A DNA stretch of 6,711 nt from Chloroflexota bacterium (GTDB lineage Bacteria; Chloroflexota; Dehalococcoidia; Lucifugimonadales; UBA826). The stretch covers positions 223,145-229,855 of the forward strand of contig PBDP01000002.1 in the NCBI GenBank assembly GCA_002718095.1, read 5' to 3'. The position numbers were made by a program, and so were the translations under genes. Shown here piece by piece: positions 1 to 6,262 of this stretch (the first letter of the stretch is position 1; every line of letters begins with the position of its first letter). The notes beneath the pieces are model-generated. The model saw only the letters and a list, made by a program, of their open reading frames with translations, did not search any database and was not told where the DNA came from.

Positions 1-2150
1 TCGTTTGCTTTGGGATGCGGATCATCAAAATAAAAAACATCATAATTTTCTACTGATTCCGCTGCATTTATACCTGCTTCAAAGAGTTTATTCATCCAAA
101 ATTCAGTTGTTTGGGATTTAAAAACATTAAAAACCAACAATCCATAATCAGTATGTAAGTAATCTTCATCAAATTTATTTTCACCTCTCTTACTTTCAAT
201 ATTATCGTCATAAATATTAATAAAGTGATGGAAAGCATCTGTATTTCCTTCCGCAGAAATATATATCCAACCATCCTTCGTCTGATATAAACGATTGTAA
301 TCACTAAGACCATATTGATTTATATCACCAAGACGTCTATCTGAAAAATTCAAATTTGGCAAATGATCTTTCTGTATTTCTGACAAATCCCCCTCCAACA
401 AAAGCGTACCTGCATTTAGCAAATTAGTTCGGGATATTTGTCCTTTACCAGTTTTCTCACGATGATATAAAGAGATAGTTATACCCAAACTTGCTATTAG
501 ACCTGCAGTATAATCTGTTGGAGCTAATTGTCCTATAAATGATGGCCTTTGAGGAGATCCTCCTTGAGCTGTTTGCAAACCTAACCACGCTTGAGCTAGT
601 GGGTCAAGGCCTGGTCTATGTGAAAATGGACCCGATTCTCCAAAAGCACTAATATAAGATTCAATTATTCTAGGATTTTCCTTCTTTAATTCTTCAGATG
701 ATAACCCTAAACGATCCAAAACACCTGGCCTCAGGTTAGCTATTAAGGCATCTCCTTTACATATGACTTTCTTAACAACATGGCTCCCCCTATCATCTTT
801 GATATTGATGGAAAGTGATCTTTTATTAGAATTTGACGAATGGAAAAAATGGAGGTTTCCAGGTCTTGAAAGATCTCCATATGGAGGTTCAATTTTATAA
901 ACATCAGCACCTAAATCAGCCAAAACCCTACCAGCAGATGGCCCAGCGATCACATTAGTAATATCTGATACTTTAATACCTTTCAATGGCATTTCTGTAG
1001 CAGTACTAAATTTAACCGGTTTATAAACTATTCTATTAAATGGAAAAGAATCTAATAAATCATCTTTTGTAACATAAGCAAGAGGTGAAATACTATTAGA
1101 GGAATCTGACAGATGTAAAGGACATCCCGGTTGTTTTATAGTCCCCAAAATAGGGTCTTCAGTTTCAACTAGCATATTGTTGTGTATAAGCTGTTCATTA
1201 TGCATAGCACTCTTGGAGGTAGCAACAACAGCAAAAGGAATGTCAGCGGCGTCAAATATGCCTGACCATTCGACAGATGATTTAGTTTTCATTTTTTCTT
1301 TTACAATATTAAATAATTCAAACCTTGATTCGTCATCAACAGGAGAAATGCCATTTCCAAATCTTTCTTCTACTAAAATGTGGGCTATGTCCATAACAGC
1401 AGCTGCAATATCAACAAACCCTTCATGAATACATGCTAATTGAATCCAATTACTATCTGAACATTCAAAAACACTATAAAAAGGACCTCCGCCTACTGGT
1501 GAATTATTAGGATATTTTTTCACTTTATTACTTGATACTATGGGAGTATAAAAAAGAGCAGCGGCATACAAGGAGGTATATACTCTGCAACCATGTTTTG
1601 TTTGCTCACGTTTAAATAATGCCGCAGTAATACCTATAGCACTAAGTAATCCTGCGCCAACTTCTACAAATGGATGAACAACATATATAGATCCTTCTCG
1701 AAACCCAGGTAATCTATCATAGATGCCTGCTCTTGCTTTAACTAGATTAGGATCTCCCACACTATCCTTCAAAGGACCTTTATTACCATATGGAGTAATA
1801 GAGCTATGGATGATATGTGGAAATTTTTTAGTTATTTCAGAAATATTTAATCCATGGAAATCCTCTGATGGAGTACAGTCATCTATAACAACATCTACAG
1901 ATGCAAGTAATGATTCAATAAAATTCAATTCTTCTGAAATATTTATCTTCAGAAGTTCTTTTCCTCGATTAAAAAAGGAGAATTCTGTTTCATAAAATTT
2001 TTCCCCTTCTGAAATTTTTAAAATGTCATTATTAGAATTATCCAAAACACGTATAACTCTAGCTCCATTATCAGCCAAGAACATTGATGAAACAGCTCCA
2101 GATTTACCTCTTGATATATCAAGTACTATTATATCTTTAAGAGTAGACAT
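1..2150 (-). CDS. Tandem (fused) CaiB/BaiF family III CoA-transferase, 3' end cut by window
   Basis: The frame is open from ATG at 2150 to the left edge (716 codons, no stop); an in-frame TAA lies directly upstream of the ATG, so no earlier start is possible. Family III CoA-transferases move CoA between carboxylic acids through an aspartyl-CoA intermediate in the cytoplasm and normally have about 400 residues. Here two copies are joined. Domain 1 spans about 1-380 (NRGK at 61-64, GGG loop at 220-222). Domain 2 begins near M387 with IAGPSAGRVLADLGADVYKIEPP-like signature parts (IAGP 401-404, IEPP 420-423, NKRSL 442-446, RPG repeats). The catalytic-Asp position is D546 (TDYTAG) in domain 2 but E163 (VEVGAG) in domain 1. 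Roughly 60-70 C-terminal residues should lie outside the window, judging from domain length. No good Shine-Dalgarno is seen; a GGA lies 13 bases from the ATG. The substrate is unknown. It is divergent from the DUF971 gene. Confidence 0.9.
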   Translation of the reverse strand, partial: MSTLKDIIVLDISRGKSGAVSSMFLADNGARVIRVLDNSNNDILKISEGEKFYETEFSFFNRGKELLKINISEELNFIESLLASVDVVIDDCTPSEDFHGLNISEITKKFPHIIHSSITPYGNKGPLKDSVGDPNLVKARAGIYDRLPGFREGSIYVVHPFVEVGAGLLSAIGITAALFKREQTKHGCRVYTSLYAAALFYTPIVSSNKVKKYPNNSPVGGGPFYSVFECSDSNWIQLACIHEGFVDIAAAVMDIAHILVEERFGNGISPVDDESRFELFNIVKEKMKTKSSVEWSGIFDAADIPFAVVATSKSAMHNEQLIHNNMLVETEDPILGTIKQPGCPLHLSDSSNSISPLAYVTKDDLLDSFPFNRIVYKPVKFSTATEMPLKGIKVSDITNVIAGPSAGRVLADLGADVYKIEPPYGDLSRPGNLHFFHSSNSNKRSLSINIKDDRGSHVVKKVICKGDALIANLRPGVLDRLGLSSEELKKENPRIIESYISAFGESGPFSHRPGLDPLAQAWLGLQTAQGGSPQRPSFIGQLAPTDYTAGLIASLGITISLYHREKTGKGQISRTNLLNAGTLLLEGDLSEIQKDHLPNLNFSDRRLGDINQYGLSDYNRLYQTKDGWIYISAEGNTDAFHHFINIYDDNIESKRGENKFDEDYLHTDYGLLVFNVFKSQTTEFWMNKLFEAGINAAESVENYDVFYFDDPHPKAN

Positions 2151-2256: not shown

Positions 2257-2565
2257 TTGAATTCATCTATCAAACTAAAAAATGTTGGATTATATGGCAA
2301 TAAGATACTATTACAGTGGGATGACGGGCACGAAAGTACTTTTTCGGCACGTGAAATTCGGGTAAGCTGCCAGTGCGCACAATGCGTAGAAGAATGGAGC
2401 AAAAGACAACTTTTGGATCCAGCCTCAGTCCCTCATGACCTAACTGCAGAAGACTATCTAACTGTTGGGCGTTACGGTATTCAATTTTTATGGAGTGACG
2501 GACACCATACAGGAATATTTCCTTTTTCTGTTTTAAGAGAAATGGATGATAGCCTTTATGATTAG
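2257..2565 (+). CDS. DUF971 / gamma-butyrobetaine hydroxylase N-terminal-like protein
   Basis: A 102-residue stand-alone DUF971 (GBBH-like_N) domain. The pattern is complete: a first W-DDGH segment (21-25), the metal cluster C38-x-C40-x2-C43, then VGRYGI (70-75) and the second WSDGHHTGIF segment (79-88) with H83/H84. In human gamma-butyrobetaine hydroxylase the equivalent three Cys and one His bind structural zinc, so a zinc site is likely here. There is no oxygenase domain attached, so it is not itself a hydroxylase. In bacteria the domain occurs alone or fused to Mrp/ApbC iron-sulfur carriers, and its role alone is not settled. The start is TTG at 2257, chosen from the GGAG six bases upstream. 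It is divergent from the CoA-transferase, and its TAG stop overlaps the stop of the DUF35 gene on the other strand by 4 bases. Family assignment is firm; function is not. Confidence 0.85.
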   Translation: MNSSIKLKNVGLYGNKILLQWDDGHESTFSAREIRVSCQCAQCVEEWSKRQLLDPASVPHDLTAEDYLTVGRYGIQFLWSDGHHTGIFPFSVLREMDDSLYD

Positions 2566-2981
2566 ATCGGTTTAAATTTAGGTAAAGCTATCTCTTCAGT
2601 TATATCTTCAAACACAACTTCCAAATCCATTCCAATCTTTAAATTATCCGAGCTTGGATTATCTATCACAATATTAGTAGGCATCTTTGGGCCTTCTTCA
2701 AGTTCTACAATTGCTGTAACATAAGGGACATCGTCAACAAACCCAGGATGTGGGGCTCTATGAACAATCCCGTAGGTAAACAAAGTAGCTTTACCTGAAG
2801 CTTTTCTCCAACCTGTATCCCTAGGGTTTGAGCAATCTAAATTTCTGCAAATATCAGTTGGGTAAAAGTAAGCATCATCGCATGTATTGCAATACCTAAG
2901 CCACAATTCTCCAGCCTTAGCTTTCTCCCAATAAAAATCTGATTCACCTTGAGGCATCGGTATAGGTTTCTTATAAGTCAT
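2562..2981 (-). CDS. DUF35 protein (rubredoxin-like Zn ribbon plus OB fold), partner of the thiolase-fold protein
   Basis: A 139-residue protein of the DUF35 family's usual size. The N-terminal helix carries the GESDFYWEKAKAGELW-type segment (12-27). The zinc ribbon follows with C31-x2-C34 and C45-x4-C50; the second pair is more widely spaced than the commoner C-x2-C. The OB fold (about 66-137) contains FTYGIVHRAPHPGF (68-81) and ends in FKPI. DUF35 proteins have no known activity alone: they bind thiolase-fold enzymes, as in archaeal thiolase/HMG-CoA synthase complexes and the Ltp2-ChsH2 aldolase, where they place the acyl-CoA. The gene sits 18 bases after the thiolase-fold gene in the same direction, so they are almost surely co-transcribed and probably form one complex. 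AAAGGA lies about 11 bases before the ATG. The 3' end overlaps the convergent DUF971 stop codon, leaving no room for an intergenic terminator. Confidence 0.9.
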   Translation of the reverse strand: MTYKKPIPMPQGESDFYWEKAKAGELWLRYCNTCDDAYFYPTDICRNLDCSNPRDTGWRKASGKATLFTYGIVHRAPHPGFVDDVPYVTAIVELEEGPKMPTNIVIDNPSSDNLKIGMDLEVVFEDITEEIALPKFKPI

Positions 2982-2999: not shown

Positions 3000-4151
3000 T
3001 TAATCAACAGCTAATATAGCGGTTCCTGTGGAAGAAAGTTGTCCTCCAGTACCATTTACTAAACATAATTTAGGATCATCAAGTTGACGGTCTCCACATT
3101 CTCCACGCAATTGCCTAACAGCTTCTAAAACTAAGAACATTCCGTACATACCTGAATGAGTATAAGATAATCCTCCTCCAGAAGTATTCATTGCAAAGTC
3201 TCCTCCCGGAGCAGTTCTTTGATTTGCAACAAAATCTGGTGCCTCACCAGGACCACAAAAACCTAAACTTTCTAAAGTTGCTAAAACTGTATATGTAAAA
3301 GAGTCGTATATCATAGCAAGGTCCATATCATCATGTGTAAGACCTGCTCTTTTCAAAGCCGCAGGACCAGTATTCCTAGCGACAGAACGAGTTAAATCAG
3401 GCATTTGACTAATAATATTATGATCGTGTGACTCTGCAGCACCCAAAACCCAAACAGGTTTCTTTTTCGCATCTCTTGCACGCTCTGCAGAAGTTATAAC
3501 ATAAGCTCCACCAGCATCAGTAACTAAACAACAGTCAAGTAAATGGAATGGTTCTGATATCCATCTAGAATTATGATAATCATCAAATGTCATATCATCT
3601 TTCATATATGCTTTTGGATTCATTTGAGCCCATTTTCTAGTAGCAACAGCAACTTCAGCCATTCCTTGTCTAGTTTTATCTTCACCATATATATGCATGT
3701 ACCTACGCGCTGCCATGGCGTAATTGACCGGTGGTCCAATTAGGCCATATGGAATTTCATATTGAGGACCAGGATCTGCAGGATCTGGACCTGGTCGTGT
3801 TCTCCTACTTCTACCGGCTTCTCCATGAGTAACCAAAGCTACATCGCAATATCCTGCATTAATAGCTGCAACAGCATGTGCTATGTGAATAACAAACGAA
3901 GAACCTCCAACAGCAGTAGTATCGGTAAAGCTAGGTTCAATACCTAAATATTCGGCTATATTTAAAGTCCCCATAGCTGTATTACCAGAGCAAAAAAGCC
4001 CATTAACATCTTTCAAAGACATCCCAGCATCGGCTAAAGCATTATGTGCAGCCTCTGCATGGTGCTGAAGATTTGATTTACCCGGAACTTTTCCGATTTC
4101 ATCCGATTCATCTACCCCTACGATAGCGACAGTTTTCCGAAGATCTGTCAT
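3000..4151 (-). CDS. Thiolase-fold lipid-transfer protein (SCP-x/Ltp2-like), lacking the canonical nucleophilic Cys
   Basis: A 383-residue member of the SCP-x/lipid-transfer branch of the thiolase superfamily. The start at 4151 is set by GGGAGGT (4156-4162) four bases upstream; the frame continues upstream to a TTG at 4283, but that would run into the divergent gene. The N-terminal half has the first thiolase fold, with VGGSSF (81-86) where thiolases carry the acylated Cys, so Gly/Ser replaces it. The second half has YDSFT (282-286), LESLGFCGPGE (293-303), N322-TSGGG, H332 in a YTHSG context matching the thiolase GHP His, and NGTGG (366-370) where the second catalytic Cys would be. Loss of both Cys argues against ordinary thiolysis and favours an Ltp2-like carbon-carbon lyase or another acyl-CoA reaction. 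The following DUF35 gene supports a complex. Substrate cannot be read from sequence. Family confidence is high and reaction confidence is low. Confidence 0.88.
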   Translation of the reverse strand: MTDLRKTVAIVGVDESDEIGKVPGKSNLQHHAEAAHNALADAGMSLKDVNGLFCSGNTAMGTLNIAEYLGIEPSFTDTTAVGGSSFVIHIAHAVAAINAGYCDVALVTHGEAGRSRRTRPGPDPADPGPQYEIPYGLIGPPVNYAMAARRYMHIYGEDKTRQGMAEVAVATRKWAQMNPKAYMKDDMTFDDYHNSRWISEPFHLLDCCLVTDAGGAYVITSAERARDAKKKPVWVLGAAESHDHNIISQMPDLTRSVARNTGPAALKRAGLTHDDMDLAMIYDSFTYTVLATLESLGFCGPGEAPDFVANQRTAPGGDFAMNTSGGGLSYTHSGMYGMFLVLEAVRQLRGECGDRQLDDPKLCLVNGTGGQLSSTGTAILAVD

Positions 4152-4188
4152 GATTACCTCCCAAAATATATAATCTTGATCTAAATAG

Positions 4189-4217
4189 AATATATTAGAA
4201 ACTCGTTTAGGATACAA
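4189..4217 (-). promoter_or_regulatory. Candidate promoter of the thiolase-fold/DUF35 operon
   Basis: On the minus strand, TTGTAT (4217-4212) and TATATT (4194-4189) are separated by exactly 17 bases. The -10 box matches 5 of 6 consensus positions and the -35 box 3 of 6. Transcription would begin about 30 bases before the ATG at 4151, leaving a short leader containing the strong GGGAGGT ribosome site. AT-rich spacers produce such matches by chance. Confidence 0.35.
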
Positions 4218-4218
4218 T

Positions 4219-4249
4219 TTATAACCTAAACACACAACACTTATATAAA
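4219..4249 (+). promoter_or_regulatory. Candidate promoter of the degenerate zincin gene, giving a near-leaderless mRNA
   Basis: TATAAA (4244-4249) is a good -10 match only 12 bases before the ATG at 4262, with TTATAA (4219-4224) 19 bases further upstream as a weak -35. If used, the transcript would start about 5 bases before the start codon. That fits the absence of any purine-rich ribosome site before this ATG. The site overlaps the divergent operon's candidate promoter region. Confidence 0.3.
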
Positions 4250-4261
4250 GTTTTAAATTTA

Positions 4262-4618
4262 ATGGCACAACTTTCTTTAACAAAATTCAAACAATTAGTA
4301 GCAGATGCAATTAATAACCTTCCAGATAACTCAAAAAAATATCTGGAAAATATCCAAGTAATTGTAGATTTATCTCCTACAGAAGAACAACTATTAGGTA
4401 CTGGATTAGAGAATAAACTAGACCTTCTAAGTTTGTATGAAGGAATCCATTCATCTGAAAGATATGGCTATGAAGACATTTTGCCAGATAAAATCACGAT
4501 ATTCCAAGAATCACTAGAATCACTTTCAACAATTGAGAGTGAGCTCGTCAAAGAAATTCAACTTACAATCAATGCGGAAATATCTCAAAATATAAGATCA
4601 TATCAAGATTTATCATAA
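4262..4618 (+). CDS. PF06262-type minimal zincin with lost HExxH motif (pseudo-metallopeptidase)
   Basis: A 118-residue protein matching the small 'metallopeptidase family' (Zincin_1) from end to end. It has an N-terminal helix with LVADAINNLPDNSKKYLENI (12-31), the LLSLYEGI segment (55-62), the LPDKITIFQ segment (74-82), and a final helix where the family has HEIAHHFG. Here that helix reads AEISQNIR (105-112): both zinc-binding His are gone (A105, Q109), the Glu (E106) remains, and the usual Gly is R112. The protein should therefore not bind zinc through this motif or cleave peptides; a binding or regulatory role is an inference. The reading frame is intact and of family length, so it is not an obvious decaying pseudogene. 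ATG 4262 has no Shine-Dalgarno. It is divergent from the thiolase-fold operon, and its stop overlaps the HerA gene's 3' end by 6 bases. Confidence 0.75.
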   Translation: MAQLSLTKFKQLVADAINNLPDNSKKYLENIQVIVDLSPTEEQLLGTGLENKLDLLSLYEGIHSSERYGYEDILPDKITIFQESLESLSTIESELVKEIQLTINAEISQNIRSYQDLS

Positions 4619-4641
4619 GCCTAGATTTTTTTTATCTTGAT
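4602..4641. repeat. Inverted repeat at the convergent gene ends, possible weak terminator
   Basis: ATCAAGAT (4602-4609) and ATCTTGAT (4634-4641) are perfect 8-base inverted copies separated by 24 bases. The loop includes an 8-T run (4626-4633) just after the plus-strand stop. The structure spans the overlapping 3' ends of the zincin-like and HerA genes. The stem is AT-rich and the T run lies inside the loop rather than after the stem, so it is not a classic intrinsic terminator. Confidence 0.2.
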
Positions 4642-6262
4642 CTATTTGTTCTTGAGTTTTTTGTGGTGCCATTGATTGATAAAAATCTTCGTTATACCTT
4701 CTAGTTTTAATTGGAACAGGTATTGGCAATGCATGACTAATAATTAATGCTTGCCCATTAGGCTCTAGCTTAGACAGTACACCTCGTAGTTCGCGCGCTT
4801 GAGAGTCACCCGATAAAACAGCGTCAATGTCTTTATCGCTATCTAAACTACATGCAATTTTAGTACCAATTTGACTCATAACATCATCATCTATTTGACT
4901 AGGCCTTTGATCTACAACCAATAAAGTGACGTTATATTTACGCATCTCTCTAGCTATATTGCCAAAAATAGTCTGATTTGCAACAGATGAGTCTAAAAAT
5001 AAATGAGCCTCTTCAATAGTTATAACTAAATTTCTAGGACGATCACTTGGATTAGAATTTGCAAGTGCATTTTCCATTTTCTGCTTATATTCATTATAAA
5101 TACGCCTTGATAACATGTTAGCTATCAATATATAAGCTGTTCTATCACTAGCAAATCGTCCAAAATTTAAAACTACGTTATACCCTTGCAACAACTGCGT
5201 AATAATGTCTGAAGCGAAATCATCTGAATTATTTTTATTTAAATTATTATCGATAAATGTATACCTTATTAGTCTAGATAACCTTCTTTTCAAAGCTTCA
5301 AGAGTTCCTGAATGACTTCCAGTTTTAGCAGCTAAATCTTCAATATCTCCATTCATAAATTCACCAAGCCAGTCATTACCAAAACGAGCTTTTAAGGCAT
5401 AAGAAGCTTCAATTGATTTTTCATTAAGGTCTAATGTCCTCTGAAGTAACGCTATATCTTCTGGTTCAATATCTGAATATTTTATTTTAATCAACGCATC
5501 TGGTGAATTATTAGAATTTCTTGTATTTTTATCAAGAGAGTGAACAAAAACATTAGAAGGAAACAATTGTTTTAATCCTTTAACCTCAGTCTGACCTTCC
5601 GTTGTACCTGACCAACCATAATCATTATGCATATCGAATATTAAATTACTGGAGAAATCACTTTTAATAATCCCACTTAACAAAATGCGCGTTAAGAAGG
5701 TTTTTCCACTCCCTGTCTTTCCAAAAACACCTGTATTCCTAGACGTCATTTTATCTATATTAAATGCTATCGAAATATTCGATTCATCCATATTGATAAA
5801 TTCTCCAATAGGAAAATTCCCTTGAGATTCATTTTCAAAAATTCTGTCCATATCATCTTTTGTAGCCTTTCTAACAATTGAAAAATATCCGGGAATATTT
5901 TTAGAATTCTGGTTAGAATTTTCACTTTCTACCTCATAATTGGGGAAATGAGGATTTAGGTCACCAAAAATTAAAACCGGCTTTATGATAAGGGTCGTAT
6001 ACAAAACAGTTCCTGATAAGGTTTGATTTAGAAAAGTATGATTATCATCTAATAATAATGATTGAAATTTAGGGTCAGTAGTCTCCAATACAATATCTTT
6101 AACAACGGCCAAGAAATCTTTGCTAGCACCTTCAATAACTACGAATAATCCATCAGAAATAGATTCAACAGGTACATTATTAGAAAGCTTAACTTTTAAT
6201 CCTTCAGAATATGATCCGCCAATAATAAATCCTATATTACTTTCAAGATTCGATTGAGTCAT
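4613..6262 (-). CDS. herA: HerA-type DNA translocase ATPase (HAS barrel plus DUF87)
   Basis: A 549-residue HerA/FtsK-superfamily ATPase. The N-terminal HAS-barrel beta domain spans about 5-100 (IGFIIGG at 10-16). The RecA-like core has Walker A GKTGSGKT (181-188), the D210-M-H-N-D-Y segment matching HerA's D-x-H-x-EY motif, a helical insertion at about 265-345, Walker B LVITIEEAH (412-420) with E417/E418, and REMRKYNVTLLVVDQRPSQI (438-457) as the sensor/arginine-finger region. The tail carries TRRYNEDF (520-527). HerA forms hexameric rings that pump DNA and usually work with the NurA nuclease in end resection; other HerA proteins pair with Sir2 or DUF4297 in phage defence. The start at 6262 follows AGGAGG (6271-6276) at ideal spacing, and its ATGA overlaps the stop of the preceding gene, so the two are translationally coupled. 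The 3' end overlaps the convergent zincin-like gene. Gene symbol is by family, not proven orthology. Confidence 0.9.
   Translation of the reverse strand: MTQSNLESNIGFIIGGSYSEGLKVKLSNNVPVESISDGLFVVIEGASKDFLAVVKDIVLETTDPKFQSLLLDDNHTFLNQTLSGTVLYTTLIIKPVLIFGDLNPHFPNYEVESENSNQNSKNIPGYFSIVRKATKDDMDRIFENESQGNFPIGEFINMDESNISIAFNIDKMTSRNTGVFGKTGSGKTFLTRILLSGIIKSDFSSNLIFDMHNDYGWSGTTEGQTEVKGLKQLFPSNVFVHSLDKNTRNSNNSPDALIKIKYSDIEPEDIALLQRTLDLNEKSIEASYALKARFGNDWLGEFMNGDIEDLAAKTGSHSGTLEALKRRLSRLIRYTFIDNNLNKNNSDDFASDIITQLLQGYNVVLNFGRFASDRTAYILIANMLSRRIYNEYKQKMENALANSNPSDRPRNLVITIEEAHLFLDSSVANQTIFGNIAREMRKYNVTLLVVDQRPSQIDDDVMSQIGTKIACSLDSDKDIDAVLSGDSQARELRGVLSKLEPNGQALIISHALPIPVPIKTRRYNEDFYQSMAPQKTQEQIDQDKKNLGL

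Follow-up and report, generated by a model that had tools for sequence, protein, structure and literature searches.

Family III CoA-transferases are homodimers (PMC3720670, PMC9813914) whose catalytic Asp and substrate loop are contributed by different subunits; in YfdE the Asp and the loop residue His233 are divided in this way (PMC3720670). A gene in the 6,711-nt stretch of Chloroflexota DNA analysed here (the window) encodes two such domains in one chain, with a Glu in the first copy at the position of the catalytic Asp in the second, raising the question of whether the protein holds one working active site or two, and whether the Glu takes part in catalysis.

Two family III domains and their catalytic positions

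Contig C2 of a 1.44 Mb genome contains the window, and the transferase gene there has a full length of 785 aa (L011:9938-12295, minus strand), whereas the part of the open reading frame within the window, starting from an ATG at 2148-2150, encodes 716 aa, so that the final 69 residues lie beyond the window edge; codon 717 is unread in this genome. CoA_transf_3 (PF02515) was found twice in the protein, one stretch per half (Pfam, E 1.7e-116), and the N half as the sole query matched solved family III members (SUGCT, E 1.2e-25). The protein is thus a member of family III (CaiB/BaiF) with two domains in one chain, as the initial annotation had claimed.

Table 1 Features of the transferase locus in window coordinates.
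Feature	Position	Strand	Basis
Gene of the tandem family III CoA-transferase; covers residues 1-716 of 785, with the 3′ end beyond the window	3..2150	minus	ORF, Pfam
N-terminal half, residues 1-380; degenerate catalytic half, conserved small domain	1011..2150	minus	
C-terminal half, beginning near residue 387; complete as a catalytic half	3..992	minus	
E163 codon (GAA), opposite the catalytic Asp, variable among homologs	1662..1664	minus	
D546 codon, catalytic Asp, invariant in 81/81 homologs	513..515	minus	
NLRPG motif, residues 472-476, C half	723..737	minus	
NSPVGGGPFYS segment, residues 216-226, in the small domain of the N half; predicted from the YfdE structure (PMC3720670) to lie against D546 in trans	1473..1505	minus	
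OB-fold/zinc-ribbon (ChsH2-type) protein; kept beside the transferase in sister genera	2562..2981	minus	
Thiolase-like protein (NCBIfam PRK06158); kept beside the transferase in sister genera	3000..4283	minus	

Translation gives Glu at residue 163 and Asp at residue 546. D546 pairs with residue 169 of YfdW (tag-corrected numbering; PDB 1pt5; independent phmmer alignment), and a search with the N half alone pairs E163 with Asp173 in YfdE and, in human SUGCT, with the equivalent Asp. In the N-half structure model a long helix spans residues 160-184 and E163 falls in its first turn; Asp165 of mesaconyl-CoA transferase sits at the same place, in a helix spanning 163-186 (PMC9196870). The fold of the N-half model (pLDDT 70, pTM 0.72) matches the family, and its large domain superposes on YfdW with Z 20.1 and an rmsd of 3.8 Å over 205 residues and on FRC with Z 20.3 and 3.7 Å over 206 residues; the full-length model, built from nine input sequences, was poor (pLDDT 52.7, pTM 0.57), and the structure search used the N-half model only. 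The proposal that a Glu of domain 1 lies opposite the catalytic Asp of domain 2 is borne out by the alignment of E163 with D546 and of D546 with YfdW Asp169.

A different Asp of domain 1 at the catalytic position, which would have overturned that placement, was looked for, and none takes the place in the N half; the nearest acidic residues are E152 and E182, neither of which is conserved in the manner of a catalytic residue. D232 was considered as a substitute nucleophile and rejected, because this residue, although present in every N half, is frequent in C halves and single-domain enzymes as well and probably has a structural role.

To follow both positions across the family, we aligned the window protein with 80 further tandem proteins, of which 78 come from genomes belonging to its phylum and 2 from Rhodococcus plasmids. 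Residue 546 is Asp in 81/81, and position 163 takes 12 residue types, with Ser the commonest (Ser 33, Asn 11, Asp 8, Thr 8, Tyr 5, Gly 5, Gln 4, Glu 2, His 2, Leu 1, Ala 1 and Val 1); within the window's own family, orthologs carry Glu, Asp or Tyr there. On a midpoint-rooted tree built without columns 163 and 546, parsimony counted 21 changes at position 163 versus 0 at D546, the median N-half column changing 20 times; Ser was the inferred root state at position 163. Conservation of E163 among other double-domain proteins, a check suggested in the initial annotation, is therefore not seen, and 73 of the 81 homologs carry a single Asp per tandem protein.

The NxRPG motif separates the halves in the same set: Asn, Arg and Gly are present in 99%, 100% and 95% of C halves versus 5%, 14% and 32% of N halves, and the complete combination of the Asp with Asn, Arg and Gly occurs in 76/81 C halves and 0/81 N halves. 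In the window protein the motif is carried by the C half and absent from the N half. Asn100 of mesaconyl-CoA transferase holds pantetheine (PMC9813914), and the Asn of NxRPG, judged by position, probably matches it. It had also been foreseen that homologs with Asp at position 163 might reveal E163 as an isolated change; such homologs do exist (8/81), but their Asp is one state among many, and each of these N halves lacks the Asn, Arg and Gly of NxRPG. The 12 residue types, the average rate of change and the fact that no Asp occurs together with an NxRPG residue thus point to E163 as drift at a dead site.

Crossed conservation and a probable composite active site

If the fusion is a dimer of the YfdE kind with one site, its C half should keep the large domain and its N half the small domain. 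With domain borders drawn by eye, guided by the alignment and by published structures, conservation among 29 orthologs was 0.61 in the C half versus 0.52 in the N half for the large domain, and 0.60 in the N half versus 0.34 in the C half for the small domain, giving a crossed interaction of 0.353 (column bootstrap 0.257-0.448). The interaction had the same sign in tandem clades B and C (0.312 and 0.153) and was absent in clade D, a mixed set of deep lineages (0.029, interval including 0). Within the N-half small domain the GGGPFYS segment is nearly invariant in orthologs, and the small domain of the C half retains some invariant residues (R620 and G614); the invariance of these two residues and the null result in clade D count against a one-site heterodimer. 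In one genome of the same order (G039, locus L127) the two halves are separate adjacent genes, the first having Ser at the site and the second Asp, and in a tree of halves these genes group with the N and C halves, respectively.

Taking the sequence comparisons together, we consider it probable (roughly 0.85) that the gene product is a fused pseudo-heterodimer with one composite active site across the two halves; the built-in heterodimer with one standard site suggested by the initial annotation draws support from the loss of N-half motifs and from crossed conservation. The two halves would fold together like the two subunits of an ordinary interlocked dimer, the C half providing the large-domain part of the sole working site, namely D546 and the NxRPG motif, and the N half, left without a nucleophile or NxRPG of its own, serving as a scaffold and as the donor of the small-domain loop GGGPFYS, which would close over D546 in trans. 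D546 should form acyl-aspartyl and aspartyl-CoA intermediates. The acceptor of the CoA is probably a carboxylic acid that the cell takes up or makes, and the donor a small acyl-CoA; E163 would reflect drift within an N-half site that has been abandoned.

The protein might instead form ordinary inter-chain homodimers, in which the C halves interlock to give two Asp sites and the N halves either pair among themselves or ride along as passengers, as would agree with the homodimeric nature of family III enzymes (PMC3720670, PMC9813914) and with the large-domain motifs being carried by the C half alone. Such C:C pairing, however, needs a conserved C-half small domain lining D546, and this is the least conserved region (0.34), the N-half small domain being kept instead (0.60); the occurrence of the halves as an adjacent gene pair in L127 also argues against this arrangement, which we regard as unlikely. 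The good conservation of the N-half small domain with no catalytic site beside it in the same half could likewise reflect a regulatory domain that binds CoA or a partner and is not half of an active site. The loss of NxRPG argues against CoA binding there, and in homologs the loop formed by the conserved stretch is known to lie opposite the Asp of the partner, making a regulatory role highly improbable.

A second nucleophile at E163, active in the N-half site but with slower or different chemistry, is very unlikely. Glu is acidic, and Asp occupies the position in five near relatives, but a sister genus carries Tyr (L105), and the site drifts over 12 residue types at an average rate with its NxRPG motif gone. 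FRC Asp169 mutants reportedly lack transferase activity; the Asp169Glu variant of FRC exists as PDB 1vgr, and we found no published kinetics for it in the open literature. Glu as an alternative nucleophile was accordingly rejected on the drift and the NxRPG loss, and the slow or altered Glu chemistry that the initial annotation had entertained finds no support in the 81 homologs.

Heteromeric and tandem precedents

Returning to the proposed fused pseudo-heterodimer, a close parallel in design is BbsEF, the succinyl-CoA:(R)-benzylsuccinate CoA-transferase (PDB 9fn0, 9fol, 9fun), which like the window protein combines two dissimilar family III subunits or halves with the catalytic Asp in one only: the title of 9fol names a D178-CoA adduct, D178 belongs to chain B of 9fn0, and the aligned residue of chain A is Tyr171. 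BbsEF differs in being made of separate polypeptides and in having known substrates, and it is distant in sequence (28 bits between 9fn0_A and the N half); no bss or bbs genes were seen around the window transferase. DddD, the DMSP CoA-transferase/lyase of Marinomonas, is likewise a CaiB-type tandem protein, ~800 aa long, whose second domain bears the catalytic Asp; its likeness to the window protein would lie in this design. No DMSP-related genes were seen near the window transferase, and the NCBIfam scan did not list a DddD model. An earlier study describes SAR202 CaiB proteins whose best Swiss-Prot hits are to DddD (PMC5395668). The formyl-CoA transferases FRC and YfdW and the acetyl-CoA:oxalate CoA-transferase YfdE share the fold, the catalytic Asp and the NxRPG-type motif with the C half but, unlike the window protein, are homodimers of single-domain chains with two identical sites.

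The window's genome also contains two pairs of adjacent single-domain family III genes, one on contig C3 (G000:C3:45799-47433; L012:5800-8070), with Ser at the site in the first gene and an unread codon there in the second, and one on contig C4 (G000:C4:246451-248348; L013), with Gln in one partner and Asp in the other. A distant tandem CoA-transferase lies near thiolase and OB-fold genes on a plasmid of Rhodococcus sp. BH4 (L055, 558-6268), and this cultured strain is a possible experimental model for the tandem enzyme.

Genomic setting and significance

The transferase adjoins thrS and infC in seven genomes of the same family, six of which also keep the thiolase (88% identical), a GBBH-like_N protein (68-76%) and the OB-fold protein (72-78%) beside it; in the seventh, the contig begins at the transferase. 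The transferase itself is 42-46% identical across these genomes, far below its thiolase and OB-fold neighbours, and this block of genes is not kept outside the family. The thiolase-like protein reads TTAVGGSSF at what we take to be the place of the nucleophilic Cys in classical thiolases. A HerA-type ATPase is encoded near a candidate NurA (window 4613-6262 and L011:16996-18174), between SelB and the thiolase, and sister genomes have an enolase-superfamily gene near the place of this ATPase.

Directly 3′ of the transferase, 22 of the 29 orthologs have a gene for a PMT_2 membrane protein of ~930-1100 aa, at most about 30 bp away or overlapping (L099, L100-L104, L106, L108-L111, L113, L114, L116 and others), and two of the three PMT_2 proteins scanned contain PA14. 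The gene is absent beside the transferase in the window's genome and in G005, and a search of the window's genome with one PMT_2 protein gave no match, which proves little by itself. PMT_2 was also not found beside the other tandem clades, many of whose loci have only about 1 kb of flank. A substrate prediction from neighbours was dropped because the thiolase and OB-fold genes are kept only within the family and PMT_2 is missing here. From the placement of a large PMT_2 protein, often with PA14, directly after the transferase across several families of the order, we raise, as a rather doubtful suggestion, that this distinct fused group may serve an undescribed CoA-linked membrane modification pathway that was secondarily lost in the window's lineage.

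Given the precedents of heteromeric BbsEF and tandem DddD, the enzyme design is already known, and the window transferase is an ordinary example of it. The analysis also removes a false lead on glutamate chemistry. The crossed pattern offers a test for one-site family III enzymes that needs sequence only: the large domain is conserved in the half with the Asp, the small domain in the dead half. In this order, CoA transferase is the sole annotation of many tandem CaiB proteins, and their annotation would gain from counting them as one-site enzymes and from choosing the right half for substrate prediction.
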